NCBI GenBank assembly: GCA_002731275.1
Contig: PCBK01000038.1
Location: 1 to 59,505 of the forward strand
Reading direction: 5' to 3'
DNA: 59,505 nucleotides
DNA from: Deltaproteobacteria bacterium
GTDB taxonomy: Bacteria; Myxococcota_C; UBA6777
In this document: positions 39,083 to 59,505 of the stretch, one piece after another
How positions within the stretch are numbered: position 1 is the stretch's first letter
Layout of the letters: every line of letters begins with the position of its first letter
Notes under the pieces: model-generated
The model's input: the letters and a program-made list of their open reading frames with translations, nothing else
The model's database searches: none
What the model was told of the DNA's origin: nothing
Made by a program: the position numbers and the translations under genes

Positions 39083-40639
39083 GTGAAGGGTATTCGTATT
39101 TTTGGATGCTTGGTATTTTTTGGCTTTGCTTTGAGTTGTACTTGCGAAGCAAACTTGTGTTCGGAAAATCGCTGTTTGGATGGGCAAGTCTGTAAAGATG
39201 GAGTGTGTCTTCCTTTGTGTTCTTTGGGGGAGAGTGTTTGTTATGGGAGGTGTGTTGATACAAAAGTCAATCCTGATCACTGTGGTTCATGTGGGGTGAG
39301 TTGTGAGACAACAGTGCTTATTTCTGGGGCTATGCGAGTTGGTGATTCTGCGAATGATATGATAAATGGTCTTGTCTCCGATAGTCTTGGGAACGTGTAT
39401 GTGACGGGTCAATTTGGTGGTTCTGTTTCGTTTGGTCGTATCAAGTTGACCGCCAGTAATACGAGTGTTTTTGTTGCAAAAATAACCCCCAAAGGTAAGT
39501 GGGAGTGGGCTGTTTCTGTGCAAGGTTCTTCCGTGAGTGTGGGGCGTGGGATTGTTATAGACAAGGCTCGGAATCTCTTTGTGGTTGGGTCATTTCAAAA
39601 CAGAGTGGTTTTTGGTCAGACTGTCTTGAGTAGCCTGGGTTACAATGATGTGTTTGTCGCGAAAATAACCCCCAAAGGCGAGTGGGGATGGGTTGTGGCT
39701 GCTGGAGGGGAGGTTTCGACTGATGAGGGGCAAAGCATCGCTATAGATGCAATGGGAGATCTGTACATCACAGGTTCTTTCCAAGGATCGGCTTCTTTTG
39801 GCCAGACACAATTAACGAGTTTTGGTGAAAAGGATATCTTTGTTTCCAAAATCGACTCAAATGGTCAATGGCTCTGGGCACGAGCAGCGGGCGGTCCTGA
39901 TGATGATGAAGGTCATAGTATCGCGGTGGATGCGCTTGGTGATGTGTATGTTACTGGATTCTTTTTGGGAGAGGCTCGTTTTGGGGAGCTTGTGTTATGG
40001 GATGCTTCCCAAAAAGCTGGTGTTTTTGTTGTGAAAGTAAGCACAAAAGGTGAGTGGAAGTGGAGTCGTAAGTCTGGTGGGACAGCATACGCGTATGGGC
40101 AAAGTATTGTGGTTGATCCTACAGGATTTGCATACCTGACAGGGGTTTTTCGTGGTGGACATGTGACTTTTGGCACTACGCAGTTGGCTGGTTTGGGGGA
40201 AGATGACATCTTTGTTGCGAAAATAAGCTTGGATGGTAGGTGGGAGTGGGCCCTTCAGGCTGGAGGTTCTATGGTGGATAAAGGTCATCAAGTTGCACTC
40301 GATGGCACAGGTTCTATTTATCTTACAGGCGCTTTTTCTGGAGCGGCCTCTTTTGGTGAGAAGCGATTCGTTAGTGATGGGGGTTTCGATGTGTTTATCT
40401 CTAAAATCAATCCTGTAGGGCATTGGTTATGGGTGGAGCACTTGAGAGGAGTATCTCATGATGAGGGGGGAGCTCTTTCTGTTGGTGTTGGAGGGAATGT
40501 TCACGTTGCAGGGTATTTTCGAGAGCGACTACACGCAGGCGATATCCGGTTTGATAACGTTGGTAGCCAAGACGGCTTTGTTGTAACTTTACAGCAAAAC
40601 ACACAACCCTGCCTTGCTGGTACGTGTCAATGGAGATAG
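39083..40639 (+). CDS. SBBP-type beta-propeller lipoprotein
   Basis: 518 residues from a GTG preceded by GAGGAGG. The signal ends at ALSCTC, a plausible lipobox. Residues about 20-75 are Cys-rich. From about 90 onward come repeats of about 55 residues carrying xIxxDxxGxxYVTGxF and DxFVAKIxPKGxWxWxxxAGG, the SBBP (seven-bladed-beta-propeller-like) pattern. The tail is CLAGTCQW. The codon use is AT-leaning compared with most neighbours, and a broken paralogue follows directly, which points to a transferred or recently duplicated locus. Extracytoplasmic binding is likely; the ligand is unknown. The phased repeat region lies upstream. Confidence 0.8.
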   Translation: MKGIRIFGCLVFFGFALSCTCEANLCSENRCLDGQVCKDGVCLPLCSLGESVCYGRCVDTKVNPDHCGSCGVSCETTVLISGAMRVGDSANDMINGLVSDSLGNVYVTGQFGGSVSFGRIKLTASNTSVFVAKITPKGKWEWAVSVQGSSVSVGRGIVIDKARNLFVVGSFQNRVVFGQTVLSSLGYNDVFVAKITPKGEWGWVVAAGGEVSTDEGQSIAIDAMGDLYITGSFQGSASFGQTQLTSFGEKDIFVSKIDSNGQWLWARAAGGPDDDEGHSIAVDALGDVYVTGFFLGEARFGELVLWDASQKAGVFVVKVSTKGEWKWSRKSGGTAYAYGQSIVVDPTGFAYLTGVFRGGHVTFGTTQLAGLGEDDIFVAKISLDGRWEWALQAGGSMVDKGHQVALDGTGSIYLTGAFSGAASFGEKRFVSDGGFDVFISKINPVGHWLWVEHLRGVSHDEGGALSVGVGGNVHVAGYFRERLHAGDIRFDNVGSQDGFVVTLQQNTQPCLAGTCQWR

Positions 40640-40954: not shown

Positions 40955-42340
40955 TTAATTACAGGAGAGCAGACAGGCTTTGTTGGGGCAGCATTGTGTG
41001 GCGGTGCCTTCTTGTGTGGGAGGGCAGTCTGCGTCTGTGTTACAACCACAGCTCTTCACAACGAGGAGCGGTCTTTTATCGCATTTGAAGCCATTACAAC
41101 AATCTGAGTCTTGTTTGCACTGAAAGAGCAAAAAGTTACCTTGGTATTGGCAAGTCTGTGTGTTGGTCTGTGCACATTGTCCATTTTGGCAGACTTGTCC
41201 TGCTGAACACGGTGATGGTGTGCTCCACACGAAACATCCTGTTGTCGGATCTTTTTGACAGCTTTGGACACCATTGTTCTGGCACTGAAAGCTCCCTAAA
41301 GTACATTGGTTACCACCTGCAGGGCAGGTCGCGGTGCTGTTTTGGCAGGAGCCATTTTTACAGACCTGAGAGCCACTACAAGTGGTGATCTTCTTGCCTT
41401 GTTTGCCACAGCTATCAAAGAAGTACACGTCGTTTCCAACACAACGCTGCTCTGTCTCTGGCGTGCAGGTCGTGCCGCCACCTGTACAGGCACCAGCTTC
41501 GCATTTTTTGGGGGGGTTACAGTCTTCGACTTTGGTGCTCTGTTTTCCACAATCATCAAACCAGTAAACGGTGCTGCCGACACACTTCTTTTCGACTTGT
41601 GGGTTGTTGGGTTGGCACCCGGCCTGGACACACTTGCCCCCCTGACAGGTGAAGCCATTGATACACGTCTCGATCATCTGCGCTTTGTTGCCGCAATCAT
41701 CAAACCAGTAAACAGAATCACCGTCACATTTCTTTTCGACCTCTGTGTTGGTGGGGGTGCAACCGTTGGGGGATTTACAGGCGCCGTTCTCACACGTCAT
41801 CGGCGCGTTACATGCCTCGACCTGCTGTCCTTGTTGACCACAATCGTCGAACCAATGAACCGCGCTGCCGACACACTTTTTGGTCGCCTGTGGGTTTTGT
41901 GCGGTGCAACCACCTGCTTTACATTGAAGGGTCGTTGGATCACAGGTCTCACCTGCCGCACATTGTTTGCTGACGGACCACTCTGGGCAGCTTGTTGAGG
42001 GGTTGACCTGACAGGTCATGACGTTGGTCCCCTGACACTGCTGACTTCCTGCTGTACAGGAGGTTGTACATTGACCTGTCTTGTCAACGACACATGTCGG
42101 AAGTCCTGATTGTCCATTACATACAGTCCCCTGCGCACAAGGATCTTGTACCCAATCCCAGCAACCGTCTGTGCTGCTGATTTTACACGTCAAAATACTC
42201 AGGCCGTCGACCGCGCACTTTTTGTCTCCACCCTTACAATTGCCACAATTGCCTGTCTTCGGCTTGCCACAAGCCACACTCAACAACATAAGCGCAGCCA
42301 CGAATCCCAAACCACGTGCCCAAAATGTCCACTGTCTCAT
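40955..42340 (-). CDS. Cys-rich repeat lipoprotein (VYWFDDCG repeats)
   Basis: 461 residues. The signal ends in MLLSVAC, a good lipobox. The mature part holds four repeats of about 45 residues with the core KKCxGxxVYWFDDCG, followed by CxNGxxCxxGxC, plus flanking CSAGQVCQNGQC-like units and a C-terminal disulphide-rich part. A protein with this many cysteines must be oxidised outside the cytoplasm, so it is a surface lipoprotein. The WFDDCG core occurs in myxobacterial Cys-rich proteins of unknown role. AAAAGG precedes the ATG. No enzyme motif is seen. Confidence 0.75.
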   Translation of the reverse strand: MRQWTFWARGLGFVAALMLLSVACGKPKTGNCGNCKGGDKKCAVDGLSILTCKISSTDGCWDWVQDPCAQGTVCNGQSGLPTCVVDKTGQCTTSCTAGSQQCQGTNVMTCQVNPSTSCPEWSVSKQCAAGETCDPTTLQCKAGGCTAQNPQATKKCVGSAVHWFDDCGQQGQQVEACNAPMTCENGACKSPNGCTPTNTEVEKKCDGDSVYWFDDCGNKAQMIETCINGFTCQGGKCVQAGCQPNNPQVEKKCVGSTVYWFDDCGKQSTKVEDCNPPKKCEAGACTGGGTTCTPETEQRCVGNDVYFFDSCGKQGKKITTCSGSQVCKNGSCQNSTATCPAGGNQCTLGSFQCQNNGVQSCQKDPTTGCFVWSTPSPCSAGQVCQNGQCAQTNTQTCQYQGNFLLFQCKQDSDCCNGFKCDKRPLLVVKSCGCNTDADCPPTQEGTATQCCPNKACLLSCN

Positions 42341-42935
42341 GATGATACTACCTTTTTGTTACAATCTATACTTTCCCTGTCGCAGAACAAATTCCACGAG
42401 AATCAACTTCTTCACAAAGCAGGGCCGCAAAGGCTCCCATCTCTTTATCGGTTTGTGTGTGTGACATGTTGTGACATCTTCTGTGTGTAGACTTTAACTC
42501 CAAGAAGTCACTCACTTATTTACATGACTACCAATATGGGTTGTCTGCTGTTGGATCACAAACCATGAACGAGTATACCATCAAAGCAAGTCACGTCAAA
42601 AACGCAAAAGCTCGTAAAAATAAGATATTGTTGAGATTGCGCTTGCTCCAGCGACAAGCCTCCCCCTCCAACACACCGACAACACCCTCTTCGCCCCATA
42701 CCCAACCCCAACCCCCCACCAAAAACGAAACCCTCTGCCTCCACAAACAACGCCAAAACTGAACATCATCACAAGCTCCCCAAACTCAACCGACCCCTTC
42801 GTACACAAAAATATGCAGTTGCAACGCGCATACAATTCCATTACTTTGTGATCCAGTCTCCGATCGCAAAGAACAAAGAGCACGCTGCGAGGAGCGTTTC
42901 TTCGCGTGCTGCTCGCAAACACGACGAGAAATACA
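42341..42935. other. Divergent intergenic region, Pro/Thr-like low complexity, no gene
   Basis: 595 bp. A 73-codon frame at 42541 is low-complexity, has no ribosome-binding site and is rejected as a gene. The region must hold the promoter of selD (rightward) and of the Cys-rich lipoprotein (leftward). No operator is apparent. Confidence 0.4.
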
Positions 42936-43979
42936 TTGAAAGAACAAACAAAACTCACGCACCTTGTGACCTGCGCTGGTTGAGCAGCGAAACTGGGTCC
43001 GGGTGACCTGGAAGGTTTGTTGAGTGAATTAACACAAGTTGATGATCCCCGTCTGCTCGTCGGTATTGGCACACGAGATGATGCCGGTGCGTATCTCGTC
43101 AGTGATGACCTTGCGATCGTGCAGACAGTTGATTTCTTTACTCCTATTGTCGATGACCCGTTTGACTATGGGTACATCGCGGCGGCCAACTCTCTGAGTG
43201 ACGCATATGCGATGGGCGCGACACCGATCACCGCTCTTAACATCGTCGGGTTTCCCACTACACAGCTCGATATCTCCATCCTCGGTGAGATCTTGAAAGG
43301 TGGTTCACAAGCCGCAAAGGACGCCAAAGTCGCGATCCTTGGTGGACACTCTGTCAAAGATCCAGAGCTGAAGTACGGGATGGCTGTGACCGCGACGGCC
43401 AGACCTTCTGAGATCGTGAAGAACAGCTCGCTACGTGTCGGAGATCAGTTGATCCTGACCAAGCCCATCGGCACAGGTATTCTCACCACTGCGCTCAAGC
43501 AAGAACGTCTCGATGACAGGCTGCTCCAGATCATCACCAATGTGATGAAGCAGCTCAATCACCACGCGTCTGTGATTATGAGGCGACACAAAGTCTCCGC
43601 GTGTACAGACGTCACAGGCTTTGGTCTGCTCGGTCACCTCTACGAGATGACCATGGAAGGTGGTGCCTCTGTCTGTCTCGATGCGGCCTCTGTCCCGCTC
43701 TTCGAAGATGTCCTCGCGCTGAGTGAAGCGGGTCGGGTGCCTGGTGGGCTCAAAACCAACAGGAAGTATCTGTCACCTTCATTACATATCATTGAAGGTG
43801 TCTCCGACGCGCTTGTGAACGCGCTGTGTGATCCACAGACCTCTGGTGGGCTGCTCTTTGCGATCCCCGAAGAAGAGGTGACGTCGTGTCTTCAAGAGCT
43901 TCACGACGCAGGCATTGTCGACGCAGCGCATGTCGGTGAGGTCGTCGCTCTGGGGTCACATCCTATCACCATCCGTTGA
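42936..43979 (+). CDS. selD: Selenophosphate synthetase SelD, itself a selenoprotein (in-frame TGA)
   Basis: 347 residues if the TGA at 42981-42983 is read as selenocysteine. From the TTG at 42936 the frame gives a start like MKEQTKLTHLVTCAG, then Sec16, then AAKLGPGDLEGLLSEL, aligning with the SelD active-site loop (Cys17 and Lys20 in E. coli). The rest is unmistakably SelD: DDAGAYLVSDDLAIVQTVDFFTP, NSLSDAYAMG, GGHSVKDPELKYG and CTDVTGFGLLGHLYEM. SelD makes selenophosphate from selenide and ATP, the donor for Sec and selenouridine. Without the TGA readthrough the protein would start at 43017 and lack its catalytic residue. The TTG start is my choice by alignment; its ribosome site is weak. 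nth-nudix follows by 44 bp. Confidence 0.92.
42981..42983 (+). other. selD: In-frame TGA selenocysteine codon of selD
   Basis: Codons on both sides keep SelD homology, so this TGA is inside the gene. The position corresponds to the catalytic Cys/Sec of SelD. The gene also ends in TGA (43977-43979), so the two are told apart by context. Confidence 0.88.
42993..43011 (+). promoter_or_regulatory. Candidate bacterial SECIS hairpin
   Basis: CTGGGTC (42993-42999) pairs with GACCTGG (43005-43011) using two G-U pairs; the loop CGGGT contains the GG usual in bacterial SECIS loops. The loop starts 17 nt after the TGA, within the range known for SelB-dependent elements. Pairing is read by eye. Confidence 0.6.
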
Positions 43980-44023: not shown

Positions 44024-45469
44024 ATGAAGCTGGAAACAAAGGCGCGAAAGATCCACAAGATGCTCGAAGAGCTGTATCCTGAGACGCCTATCCCACTCGA
44101 CCACAAAGATCCATACACCCTCCTGATCGCTGTCCTGCTCTCCGCACAGTGCAAAGATGAACGCGTCAACAAGATCACACCTCACCTGTTCAAAAGAGCT
44201 GACAAACCAGCAGATATGATCGAGTGTTCTGTCGATGAGATCGAAGATATTATTCGGCCTTGTGGACTCGCACCGCGTAAATCTGCCGCGATCTGGGAAC
44301 TCTCACAGATCCTGCTCAAAAAACATGGTGGTGAGGTCCCCGACACATTCGAAGATCTGGAGGCGTTGCCCGGTGTGGGACACAAGACCGCGTCTGTCGT
44401 GATGGCGCAGGCGTTCGAACATCCAGCCTTTCCTGTCGATACACACATCCACAGACTCGCACGACGCTGGGGCCTGAGTGAAGGCAAAAATGTCGTCCAG
44501 GTCGAGAACGATCTCAAAGCGCTCTTCCCCAAAGATAAGTGGAACAAAGTGCACCTTCAGATCATCTTCTTCGGTCGCGAATACTGTCCTGCACGTGGCC
44601 ACAATCCCGAAGAATGTCCGATCTGTTCATGGGCCGGGGTCAAGTCCGTCCTCGATGCTGAGAAGAAAAAGAAAAAGAAACCCACCAAAAAGGACACAAT
44701 TCCCACAAAGAAAACTGCCACGAAGAAAGCCGCCGCGAAAACAACGACGAAGAAGACCACCAAGAAAACAACTGCCGCAAAGAAGGCAACGACCACCACA
44801 AAAGAGACCGCTCCCAAGAAGTCTCCCACCAAAACGACAACCACGACAAAAAAGACCTCCACGAAGAAGTCTTCAAAAACAACGACAAAGGCTGCACCTT
44901 CTAAGCGCACACCTGCGAAGTCGACGACCAAGGCTGTGCCAAAGCAAGCCGCCTCCAAAAAGGTGGAAGAGCCGACGTTGTGGTCCATCGCAGTGGGGGT
45001 CGTGATGTATCGTCGGAAGGTGTTGATGATCAAGCGCGCACGTGAGCCGTACAAGGGGCTTTGGGCGTTACCTGGTGGGAAGATCGAGGCGAATGAGTTC
45101 ATGGTTGACGCGGCGATCCGCGAGATCAAAGAGGAGACAGGCCTTGATGTGTCCTTCGAGGACTATTTGGGCTTGGTCTCTGAGCACCTTATCGAGAAGA
45201 AGGCGATCCACGATCACTTCTTGCTGCATATTTGTCGACTGAAGCCAAAGAAAGGCTCGAAGATCAGCGCCCAAGAAGAGGGTGAGGTGGCGTGGTTCAC
45301 GATGAAGCAGCTCGAAGCACAGAAAGACGAAATGGTACCAAGTGATTACGAGATCATTGAGCGGATGGTCAACGAGGAGGAGGGCAACGCCTTCGCGTGT
45401 GTGATCGAGAAGAAGGGGAGACGTCACACATTGCGTTCATTTGAGTCCATGTCGTGTCAGAGTCGTTAG
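44024..45469 (+). CDS. Endonuclease III fused to a Nudix hydrolase by a Lys/Thr-rich linker
   Basis: 481 residues. Residues 1-212 are a DNA glycosylase/AP lyase of the Nth type: helix-hairpin-helix LEALPGVGHKTAS with Lys121, and VDTHIHR with Asp139, equal to Lys120/Asp138 in E. coli. The iron-sulphur region has Cys188, Cys198 and Cys201 but no fourth cysteine. Residues about 213-315 are a linker of Lys, Thr, Ala and Pro. Residues about 316-480 form a Nudix hydrolase with a perfect Nudix box (G352 to L374: GKIEANE ... REIKEETGL), likely MutT-like. The two halves would excise oxidised bases and remove oxidised nucleotides. The gene follows selD by 44 bp and overlaps the convergent kinase gene by 4 bp. 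Confidence 0.9.
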   Translation: MKLETKARKIHKMLEELYPETPIPLDHKDPYTLLIAVLLSAQCKDERVNKITPHLFKRADKPADMIECSVDEIEDIIRPCGLAPRKSAAIWELSQILLKKHGGEVPDTFEDLEALPGVGHKTASVVMAQAFEHPAFPVDTHIHRLARRWGLSEGKNVVQVENDLKALFPKDKWNKVHLQIIFFGREYCPARGHNPEECPICSWAGVKSVLDAEKKKKKKPTKKDTIPTKKTATKKAAAKTTTKKTTKKTTAAKKATTTTKETAPKKSPTKTTTTTKKTSTKKSSKTTTKAAPSKRTPAKSTTKAVPKQAASKKVEEPTLWSIAVGVVMYRRKVLMIKRAREPYKGLWALPGGKIEANEFMVDAAIREIKEETGLDVSFEDYLGLVSEHLIEKKAIHDHFLLHICRLKPKKGSKISAQEEGEVAWFTMKQLEAQKDEMVPSDYEIIERMVNEEEGNAFACVIEKKGRRHTLRSFESMSCQSR

Positions 45470-47388
45470 GGCCATGCGCAGCGGAAGCCAATGTCATCCG
45501 CTTGTGTGTCTGGTGAGAGGGCGTGTTGATGGGTGGTGTAGAGTTCTTTGTAGGGGGAACGGAAGCTCCCACCACGAAGTGTACGTTTGAAACAGTGCTT
45601 TTCTTTTTGCTCGGTACATCCGAGAGTCCATTCTTTGACATTGCCTGTCATGTGATAGACGCCGAAGAAGCTCTTGTCGCGTTTGAAGGTCGCACGAGGT
45701 GAGGGTGCGCCTGGGTTGTTTGGGCACTCGTGTGAGTGTGCGACGTTGGCGGCTTTGCAGGAGAGTCGTTTGCCGAGGGGGATGAGTCGTTTATCCCAAC
45801 CTCTCGCAGCTTTTTCCCACTCGTAGGGGGTGGGGAGTCGTTTTTGTCTGAATTTACAATATCGCACGGCGTCGTGCCACGAGACAAACGCGATGGGAGC
45901 GTCGAGATCGCCACTGTTGGTGTGTTTGGGGTGCTTTGTGCACTGTTTGGCTTCGACACACTGTGCGTATTCACGTCGTGTGACCTCGTAGGTGTCGATC
46001 CAGAAGGTGGGCAGTCGTTTCCAGCTGATAGGGTGTGGGCCGCCTTTGCCGCCAAAGTAGAACCAGCCTTTGGGGATCTTGACCATCTGGTCGAGCTGCA
46101 TGGGTGGATCTGGGCGTCTTTGTTCGAGATACTGTGCCTGGACGAGTGGTGCGTCTGGTGCGGCGCTGAGGGCTGGCAACATCCAGGGACTTGGTGTGAG
46201 GGGTTGTTTCTTCCAGGGGTTGATATGTTGCCACTGTGTCGTGAGGAAGTTGCGTGAGGAGGGGAGAGCAGCGGCGATGATCAGCGTCAGCGCTGCGAAG
46301 ATAAAGAAGACCGGCAGCGATCGTCGTTTAGGGATGGAGACCTCTGTTGGGTGTGAGAGGGCGAGCAGTGATTGTCGTGCTGTTTGTGCGTTGGCTGGAC
46401 GCTTTGCGGCGTCTTTGTAGAGTAGTTTTTGGTGCCACGCGTTGAGACCTTCTGGGAGGTAGGTGAGGACATCGGAGGGGAGGCGAGGTGGTTCCTCTTC
46501 GAGGACTTGCCGGACCATATGAAGGACGTTGTTGGTGGTGATCAGTCGGGCACCGGACCAGACCTCATAGAGCATCGCGCCGAGCGCGTAAAGATCGGTC
46601 TTTGGTGTGATCGGAAGCTCTGGTCGGAGCTGTTCGGGGGCCATGTAGGGGACGGTCCCAGTCTCTTCGTAGCGGTTGCCGATCGTTGTGGAGAGGCCAC
46701 TGTCTCGGATCTGTGCGAGGCCAAAGTCCATGACCTTGACTTTGTATGTGGGCAGTGGTTGGAGGATGGGTTCATCGTCGAACCAGGCTTCGCGTTGTTG
46801 TGGCGCGTTATTTTCGGGGGTGGAGCCGACGAGGAAGATGTTGTCGGGCTTGAGATCTCTGTGAATGACGCCGCGTTCGTGTGCGTGATGAAGGGCGGAG
46901 AGGATGTCTTCGGCGAGGGAGAGGCCTTCATGTGGTGGGAGGGGACCGCGTTTGAGGCGGTCGCCGAGGGTTTCGCCTTCGAGCAGCTCCATAATGATAG
47001 CGAAGCGGTTGTGTTCTTCGATCATCTCGTGAAATTTCACGATGTGTGGGTGTTCGAGCGCGGCGAGGGCTTTGCCTTCTCGTTGGAGGCGGCGGCGTGC
47101 GCGTGGGTCGCCTTCTCGAAGGGCGGGGAGCATTTTGAGCGCGAAGTAGGTCTGTGTTTTGACGTGGAGGGCCTTGTAGACTTCTCCCATACCGCCTTCA
47201 CCGAGTCGCTCTTTGAGGACGTAGCCGGCCATTTGTTTGGGCGTGGTGGAGGGAGGTTCTGTGGGGACGTGGCTCTCTGGGGGAGGTGTTTTGGGAGGGA
47301 CAGTACTGAGTCCTCCCATCAGACGACCACAGTAAGTACAAAAACGACTTTCTGATGGATTCTCACGCCCACAAGCTTCACACTTCAT
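45466..47388 (-). CDS. Zinc-ribbon Ser/Thr protein kinase with C-terminal FGE-like domain
   Basis: 640 residues from the ATG at 47388, where a zinc ribbon begins (Cys3, 6, 17, 20). The kinase domain (about 55-320) has Gly loop GEGGMGEV (63-70), Lys85 (ALK), HRDLKPDN, and VMDFGLAQ; it is complete. A membrane segment near 350-372 (SLPVFFIFAALTLIIAAAL) puts the C-terminal FGE-sulfatase-like domain (about 430-640, ending RGGSFRS ... GFRCAWP) outside. A receptor-like kinase whose periplasmic part senses a ligand is the likely design. The FGE-like fold in such kinases is usually a binding domain, not a catalyst. Its stop overlaps the end of nth-nudix. This gene and the kinase-sigma54 fusion share the kinase-FGE combination. 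Confidence 0.87.
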   Translation of the reverse strand: MKCEACGRENPSESRFCTYCGRLMGGLSTVPPKTPPPESHVPTEPPSTTPKQMAGYVLKERLGEGGMGEVYKALHVKTQTYFALKMLPALREGDPRARRRLQREGKALAALEHPHIVKFHEMIEEHNRFAIIMELLEGETLGDRLKRGPLPPHEGLSLAEDILSALHHAHERGVIHRDLKPDNIFLVGSTPENNAPQQREAWFDDEPILQPLPTYKVKVMDFGLAQIRDSGLSTTIGNRYEETGTVPYMAPEQLRPELPITPKTDLYALGAMLYEVWSGARLITTNNVLHMVRQVLEEEPPRLPSDVLTYLPEGLNAWHQKLLYKDAAKRPANAQTARQSLLALSHPTEVSIPKRRSLPVFFIFAALTLIIAAALPSSRNFLTTQWQHINPWKKQPLTPSPWMLPALSAAPDAPLVQAQYLEQRRPDPPMQLDQMVKIPKGWFYFGGKGGPHPISWKRLPTFWIDTYEVTRREYAQCVEAKQCTKHPKHTNSGDLDAPIAFVSWHDAVRYCKFRQKRLPTPYEWEKAARGWDKRLIPLGKRLSCKAANVAHSHECPNNPGAPSPRATFKRDKSFFGVYHMTGNVKEWTLGCTEQKEKHCFKRTLRGGSFRSPYKELYTTHQHALSPDTQADDIGFRCAWP

Positions 47389-47915
47389 ACAGCTTTGCCT
47401 TTTGCTCTCGAAATATCGGGTCTTCGAATGTTTCTTTTGCTGGAGATCATGTGCAGTGATGGGTGTTTGTGTTCCAGCGTTGGCTTTTGTTCTTTTCCTT
47501 TGGGTAAAGATAACATGCTTGTGGGGGGATGCCAATGTCTATGAAGAAAGAGTGAGGGGGAGTCATTTTGGGACTGTAGAGACCTTACTGCGGGATAGTT
47601 TCCCAGGAATACATTGTTTTTTGGGGTTGGAATAAATTTGGAGAAAAATCGAAAAAATTCCCTTGACATCTTGTAGTCAAGCATTATCACTTACGCTGCA
47701 TTTGTTGAGCACAACTTGTTCCCGAATGGGACAGTGAAGCTTGTGTTCTTCCGGCAGGGAAGGGCACACATAAACAAACGATTGTCTGTGTCAGGCGTAT
47801 GATTGTGATGCCACAACAGGTGAGAGCCGACGCAGGATTTATTTTTGATGAACGTTCAAAAACGAACGAGTTATCTCTTTTTCCAGATGAAAAAAACAAA
47901 AGGGAGAGATGGACG
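47389..47915. other. Intergenic region with groE promoter and long leader
   Basis: 527 bp without a supported gene. It holds the groE promoter candidate (47663-47690) and an about 220-base groES leader. In the leader CGTTC and GAACG form a small inverted repeat near 47850-47866. No CIRCE element (TTAGCACTC-N9-GAGTGCTAA) is present. Confidence 0.5.
47662..47690 (+). promoter_or_regulatory. Candidate groE promoter with inverted repeat over the -35
   Basis: TTGACA (47663-47668) is followed after 16 bp by TATCAC (47685-47690). CTTGAC (47662-47667) and GTCAAG (47676-47681) form an inverted repeat across the -35 and spacer, suitable for a repressor. A link to groE control is inference. Confidence 0.5.
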
Positions 47916-59384: not shown

Positions 59385-59505
59385 TAACTGGAGAGTTTGA
59401 TCCTGGCTCAGAACGAACGCTGGCGGTATGCCTAACACATGCAAGTCGAGCGCGAAGCTCCTCTTCGGAGGAGTGTTAGAGCGGCGAACGGGTGCGTAAC
59501 ACGTG
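59385..59505 (+). rRNA. rrs: 16S ribosomal RNA, 5' end (runs off the window)
   Basis: GAGTTTGATCCTGGCTCAG at 59393 corresponds to the universal 8F/27F priming region, so the mature 5' end is about 59385. It continues with GAACGCTGGCGGTATGCC and CACATGCAAGTCGAGCG, which is deltaproteobacterial in style. Only about 121 nt are in the window; the rest lies downstream. Confidence 0.97.

Follow-up and report, generated by a model that had tools for sequence, protein, structure and literature searches.

An in-frame UGA codon at the active-site position of selD in a Myxococcota-like bacterium points to a selenocysteine-containing SelD

The window, the whole stretch of 59,505 nucleotides that was analysed, contains on its forward strand a long open reading frame (43017-43979) with homology to selenide, water dikinase (SelD). 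A TGA codon at 42981-42983 is in frame with it, and the locus raises the question whether this TGA is a true stop, an error, or a codon for selenocysteine (Sec) in the active site of the enzyme. No other stop codon than this TGA interrupts the frame between 42852 and the terminal stop at 43977-43979. The features of the locus are as follows.

42936-43979, + strand: selD, selenide, water dikinase, 347 amino acids, with predicted Sec at residue 16 and a TTG start (TIGR00476 and PRK00943 matches; N-terminus aligned with relatives)
42906-42908, + strand: GTG, alternative start codon, with AGGAG at 42890-42894, 11 nt upstream
42936-42938, + strand: TTG, favoured start codon (Met at equal distance from the UGA in five relatives)
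42981-42983, + strand: in-frame TGA, predicted to be read as Sec, at the position of Cys17 of Escherichia coli SelD (alignment with PDB entry 3u0o and 44 homologues)
42990-42992, + strand: codon for Lys19, counterpart of the conserved, catalytic Lys20 in E. coli SelD (3u0o alignment)
42993-43012, + strand: putative bacterial SECIS element, two overlapping alternative hairpins (folding energies, gene comparison)

With the TGA read as Sec, the peptide is LKEQTKLTHLVTCAG-U-AAKLGPGDL..., and the protein matches the selD model TIGR00476 with 371.1 bits (cut-off 125; model positions 1-310 of 311, residues 6-314) and PRK00943 with 327.8 bits (cut-off 299). A previous interpretation of this DNA, hereafter the sequence-only reading, had proposed such a read-through into Sec-AAKLGPGDL; the peptide could be reproduced, and homology to SelD is present on both sides of the codon. 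When the protein is aligned by phmmer with E. coli SelD (PDB entry 3u0o), over residues 5-337, residue 16 falls opposite Cys17 and Lys19 opposite Lys20, a known catalytic residue; E. coli SelD thus has a cysteine where the window protein would have Sec. A start at 43017 would drop the N-terminal catalytic loop, as had been pointed out in the sequence-only reading, since the loop with U16 and K19 lies upstream of this position.

The TTG codon at 42936 is located 15 codons 5' of the UGA, and an identical distance between the UGA and the initial methionine is found in five relatives (L022, L035, L037, L052 and L071), in agreement with the start that had been assigned before. As judged from these alignments, TTG 42936 is the favoured start; a start at GTG 42906 is possible but less likely, because it would not match the N-terminal length of the relatives.

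A gene downstream of selD (44024-45469, + strand) encodes Endonuclease III (HhH-GPD), a Lys/Thr-rich linker and a C-terminal NUDIX domain in one protein. The nth genes near selD in sister genomes (L041, L042) align over residues 1-209 only and lie on the strand opposite to selD; the NUDIX part may therefore be a peculiarity of the lineage of the window. Further downstream, a single protein (45466-47535, - strand) combines zinc-ribbon-like, Ser/Thr protein kinase and formylglycine-generating-enzyme-like (FGE-sulfatase) domains, and the window ends within the start of a 16S rRNA gene (59385-59505, + strand). Upstream of selD are located a gene for a protein with SBBP beta-propeller repeats (39083-40639, + strand) and one for a Cys-rich repeat protein with no Pfam match (40955-42340, - strand).

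The possibility that the TGA is a true stop, leaving either a truncated SelD that starts at TTG 43017 or a pseudogene, agrees with the output of a standard ORF caller, which yields 43017-43979, but not with the conservation of the sequence upstream of the codon. Relatives at 60% identity read REEILKLTHLVTCAG-U-ASKLGPGDL, which shows that the resemblance upstream of the codon is no product of chance. Protein-level conservation of the segment that precedes the TGA (LTHLVTCAG) extends to distant relatives, which implies that translation must pass through the TGA. The catalytic loop belongs to this conserved upstream part. In addition, a second SelD match was not found in the genome, yet selA, selB, selC and the other UGA-containing genes described below need a SelD. 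A true stop is therefore given a negligible probability.

Conservation of the UGA codon itself was observed directly in homologous genes. Within the same family, each of the three other genomes with a SelD match contains one internal TGA at this codon, at 38-60% identity, and TGA is likewise present at the Sec codon of all 13 loci of another collection (labelled Myxococcota, Calditrichaeota, Acidobacteria, Krumholzibacteriota, Chloroflexota, Desulfosudis and others), two of which are genomes already included in the same-family search. Thirty further loci came from 282 sampled genomes belonging to the phylum in which L029 is placed, another Myxococcota group that was reached via a related locus; order- and phylum-level searches around the window itself covered five genomes only. 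The N-terminal alignment with Cys- and Sec-containing SelDs that the sequence-only reading had proposed comprises 44 distinct SelD genes, with TGA at the Sec codon in 32, a Cys codon (TGC or TGT) in 12 and a codon for another residue in none, a ratio that is no estimate of frequency because the genes were picked by similarity to the window SelD. The occurrence of TGA or Cys, and nothing else, in these 44 genes makes a sequencing error or a pseudogene very unlikely. An error in a Cys codon TGT or TGC would need one base change only, in an assembly that consists of multiple contigs and for which some contamination is estimated. However, where the sequence-only reading had looked to TGT or TGC in other strains as a sign of such an error, the same-family matches all carry TGA, as do most homologues from other phyla, and the machinery for Sec incorporation is present in the genome. 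A sequencing or assembly error is, in view of this, extremely improbable.

The presence of selA, selB and selC had been predicted from the UGA codon, and all three were found in the same assembly: selA (TIGR00474, 550 bits), full-length selB (TIGR00475, 380 bits) and selC (RF01852, 71.5 bits), the last of which is also identified by ARAGORN as tRNA-SeC with anticodon TCA (UCA). A tRNA-Sec was found in 14 of the 15 genomes tested. The assembly has a size of 10.75 Mb, with a completeness of 94.65% and an estimated contamination of 5.5%. The contigs with selA, selB, selC and the fdhA and selW candidates show tetranucleotide correlations with the window of 0.94-0.95, as do the other contigs of the genome, whereas those of sister genomes with the window are 0.81-0.85. 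On this compositional evidence, the idea that the Sec machinery derives from contamination was discarded, and contamination of the contigs concerned is unlikely. A search for ybbB/mnmH gave no TIGR03167 match in the genome (94.65% complete), with a positive E. coli control, and the selenouridine trait appears to be absent within this completeness. Since YbbB was not found, SelD most likely serves Sec synthesis alone.

Three other genes of the genome (G000) contain an in-frame UGA at a site where Sec would be expected. The candidate for the alpha subunit of formate dehydrogenase (FdhA; L074, C35:221726-223744) has the UGA in the motif CAATUHAPTVAGL and shares one 262-kb contig with selB. Starting 18 nt downstream of its UGA, a 7-bp stem encloses the loop GGUCU, which resembles the SECIS loop of E. 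coli fdhF. In the SelW-like candidate (L073, C174:3466-3678) the UGA belongs to a CVRU motif, and 22 nt downstream of it lies a 7-bp stem that encloses the loop GUU. In the peroxiredoxin-like candidate (L097, C84:45779-46207) the UGA is part of GYWUPYC (UPYC motif). On the evidence of these motifs, the FdhA, SelW-like and peroxiredoxin-like proteins are likely to be further selenoproteins.

Two overlapping hairpins can be formed downstream of the selD UGA. The first (42993-43011; CUGGGUC-CGGGU-GACCUGG) has the loop CGGGU and a folding energy of -8.0 kcal/mol, with 16 nt between the UGA and the apical loop; its competitor (42998-43012; UCCGGG-UGA-CCUGGA) has the loop UGA and an energy of -7.4 kcal/mol, with 20 nt between the UGA and the apical loop. 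Both carry a G in the apical loop. The sequence-only reading had described the hairpin at 42993-43011, which indeed exists, but had placed it 17 nt downstream; the stem begins 9 nt and the loop 16 nt after the UGA. In the window sequence alone neither form reaches significance: with shuffled dinucleotides as the reference the downstream hairpin has a z of about 0 to -1.5, shuffling of synonymous codons gives p=0.15, and the region has no SECIS family match in Rfam. At the level of groups, Sec-SelDs are more structured after this codon than Cys-SelDs, with mean z values of -1.70 and -0.61, respectively, for the following 39 nt against synonymous shuffles (Mann-Whitney p=5e-4, a value that is optimistic since the sequences are related). 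Counts of base pairs do not separate the two hairpin forms (paired cells 67% versus 69% in Sec genes, 48% versus 45% in Cys genes). The sequence of a sister genus favours the 42993-43011 form, with a perfect 7-bp stem and -9.9 kcal/mol, and several more distant genes favour the 42998-43012 form. A SECIS hairpin downstream of the selD UGA is plausible, although weak by itself and uncertain in its exact form, and it constitutes the weakest part of the claim that SelD is a selenoprotein.

The weakness of the selD hairpin on its own would fit with a UGA that is read by a route other than Sec incorporation, i.e. near-cognate read-through or a reassigned code. Such a route is nevertheless hardly credible, given the presence of tRNA-Sec, SelA and SelB, the occurrence of UGA at the Sec position in four distinct Sec families, and the use of UGA as a stop in this genome, with selD itself ending at TGA 43977-43979.

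The gene is almost certainly a functional selD whose product, as predicted from the comparisons above, is itself a selenoprotein with Sec at residue 16. From these observations we infer actual read-through, a SECIS structure and catalysis along the following lines. SelB with Sec-tRNA-Sec (selC, anticodon UCA) would recognize the stem-loop just 3' of the UGA and insert Sec at residue 16, where it would take the place of the catalytic Cys of other SelDs, near the catalytic Lys19. The enzyme would make selenophosphate from selenide and ATP, which SelA would use for the conversion of Ser-tRNA-Sec to Sec-tRNA-Sec. Since SelA needs selenophosphate for this conversion, SelD would depend on its own product. 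The selenophosphate would most likely feed only the synthesis of Sec for SelD, FdhA and the SelW-like and peroxiredoxin-like proteins. A more specific proposal, in which a Sec-dependent SelD serves Sec synthesis only in a lineage without selenouridine and the alternative SECIS hairpins differ between sister genera, is considered unlikely; if true, it would represent a small variation in how bacterial SECIS elements have evolved.

Sec-containing SelD is already well described in the literature, and the window gene is ordinary biology in this respect. Sec is encoded, invariably at one position, by 19% of the SelD genes in prokaryote reference genomes, the rest having Cys, and RNAz recovers the bacterial SECIS elements of Sec-SelD genes (PMC4561486). 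The window gene shares with bacterial Sec-SelD (SPS2-Sec) the enzyme family, the position of Sec, the in-frame UGA, with a putative structure downstream, and the co-occurrence with selA, selB and selC. Nothing essential differs apart from the new sequence, with which none of the homologues found shares more than 60% identity. SelD and FdhA, among others, are selenoproteins of Deltaproteobacteria, Anaeromyxobacter dehalogenans included, and no selenoproteome lacks both FdhA and SelD (PMC1794560). A. dehalogenans has 11 selenoproteins, including SelD and three FdhA (PMC1794560, Table 3), and combines SelD, FdhA and peroxiredoxin selenoproteins in one bacterium, a combination also predicted for the window genome, in which a SelW-like candidate is found additionally.

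The general understanding of these enzymes is unchanged by the window selD. For the organism, the start of one gene is corrected and a Myxococcota-like lineage emerges as a user of selenocysteine. If open reading frames are closed at UGA during annotation, its SelD is deprived of the catalytic residue, and the FdhA, SelW and peroxiredoxin-like genes are broken.
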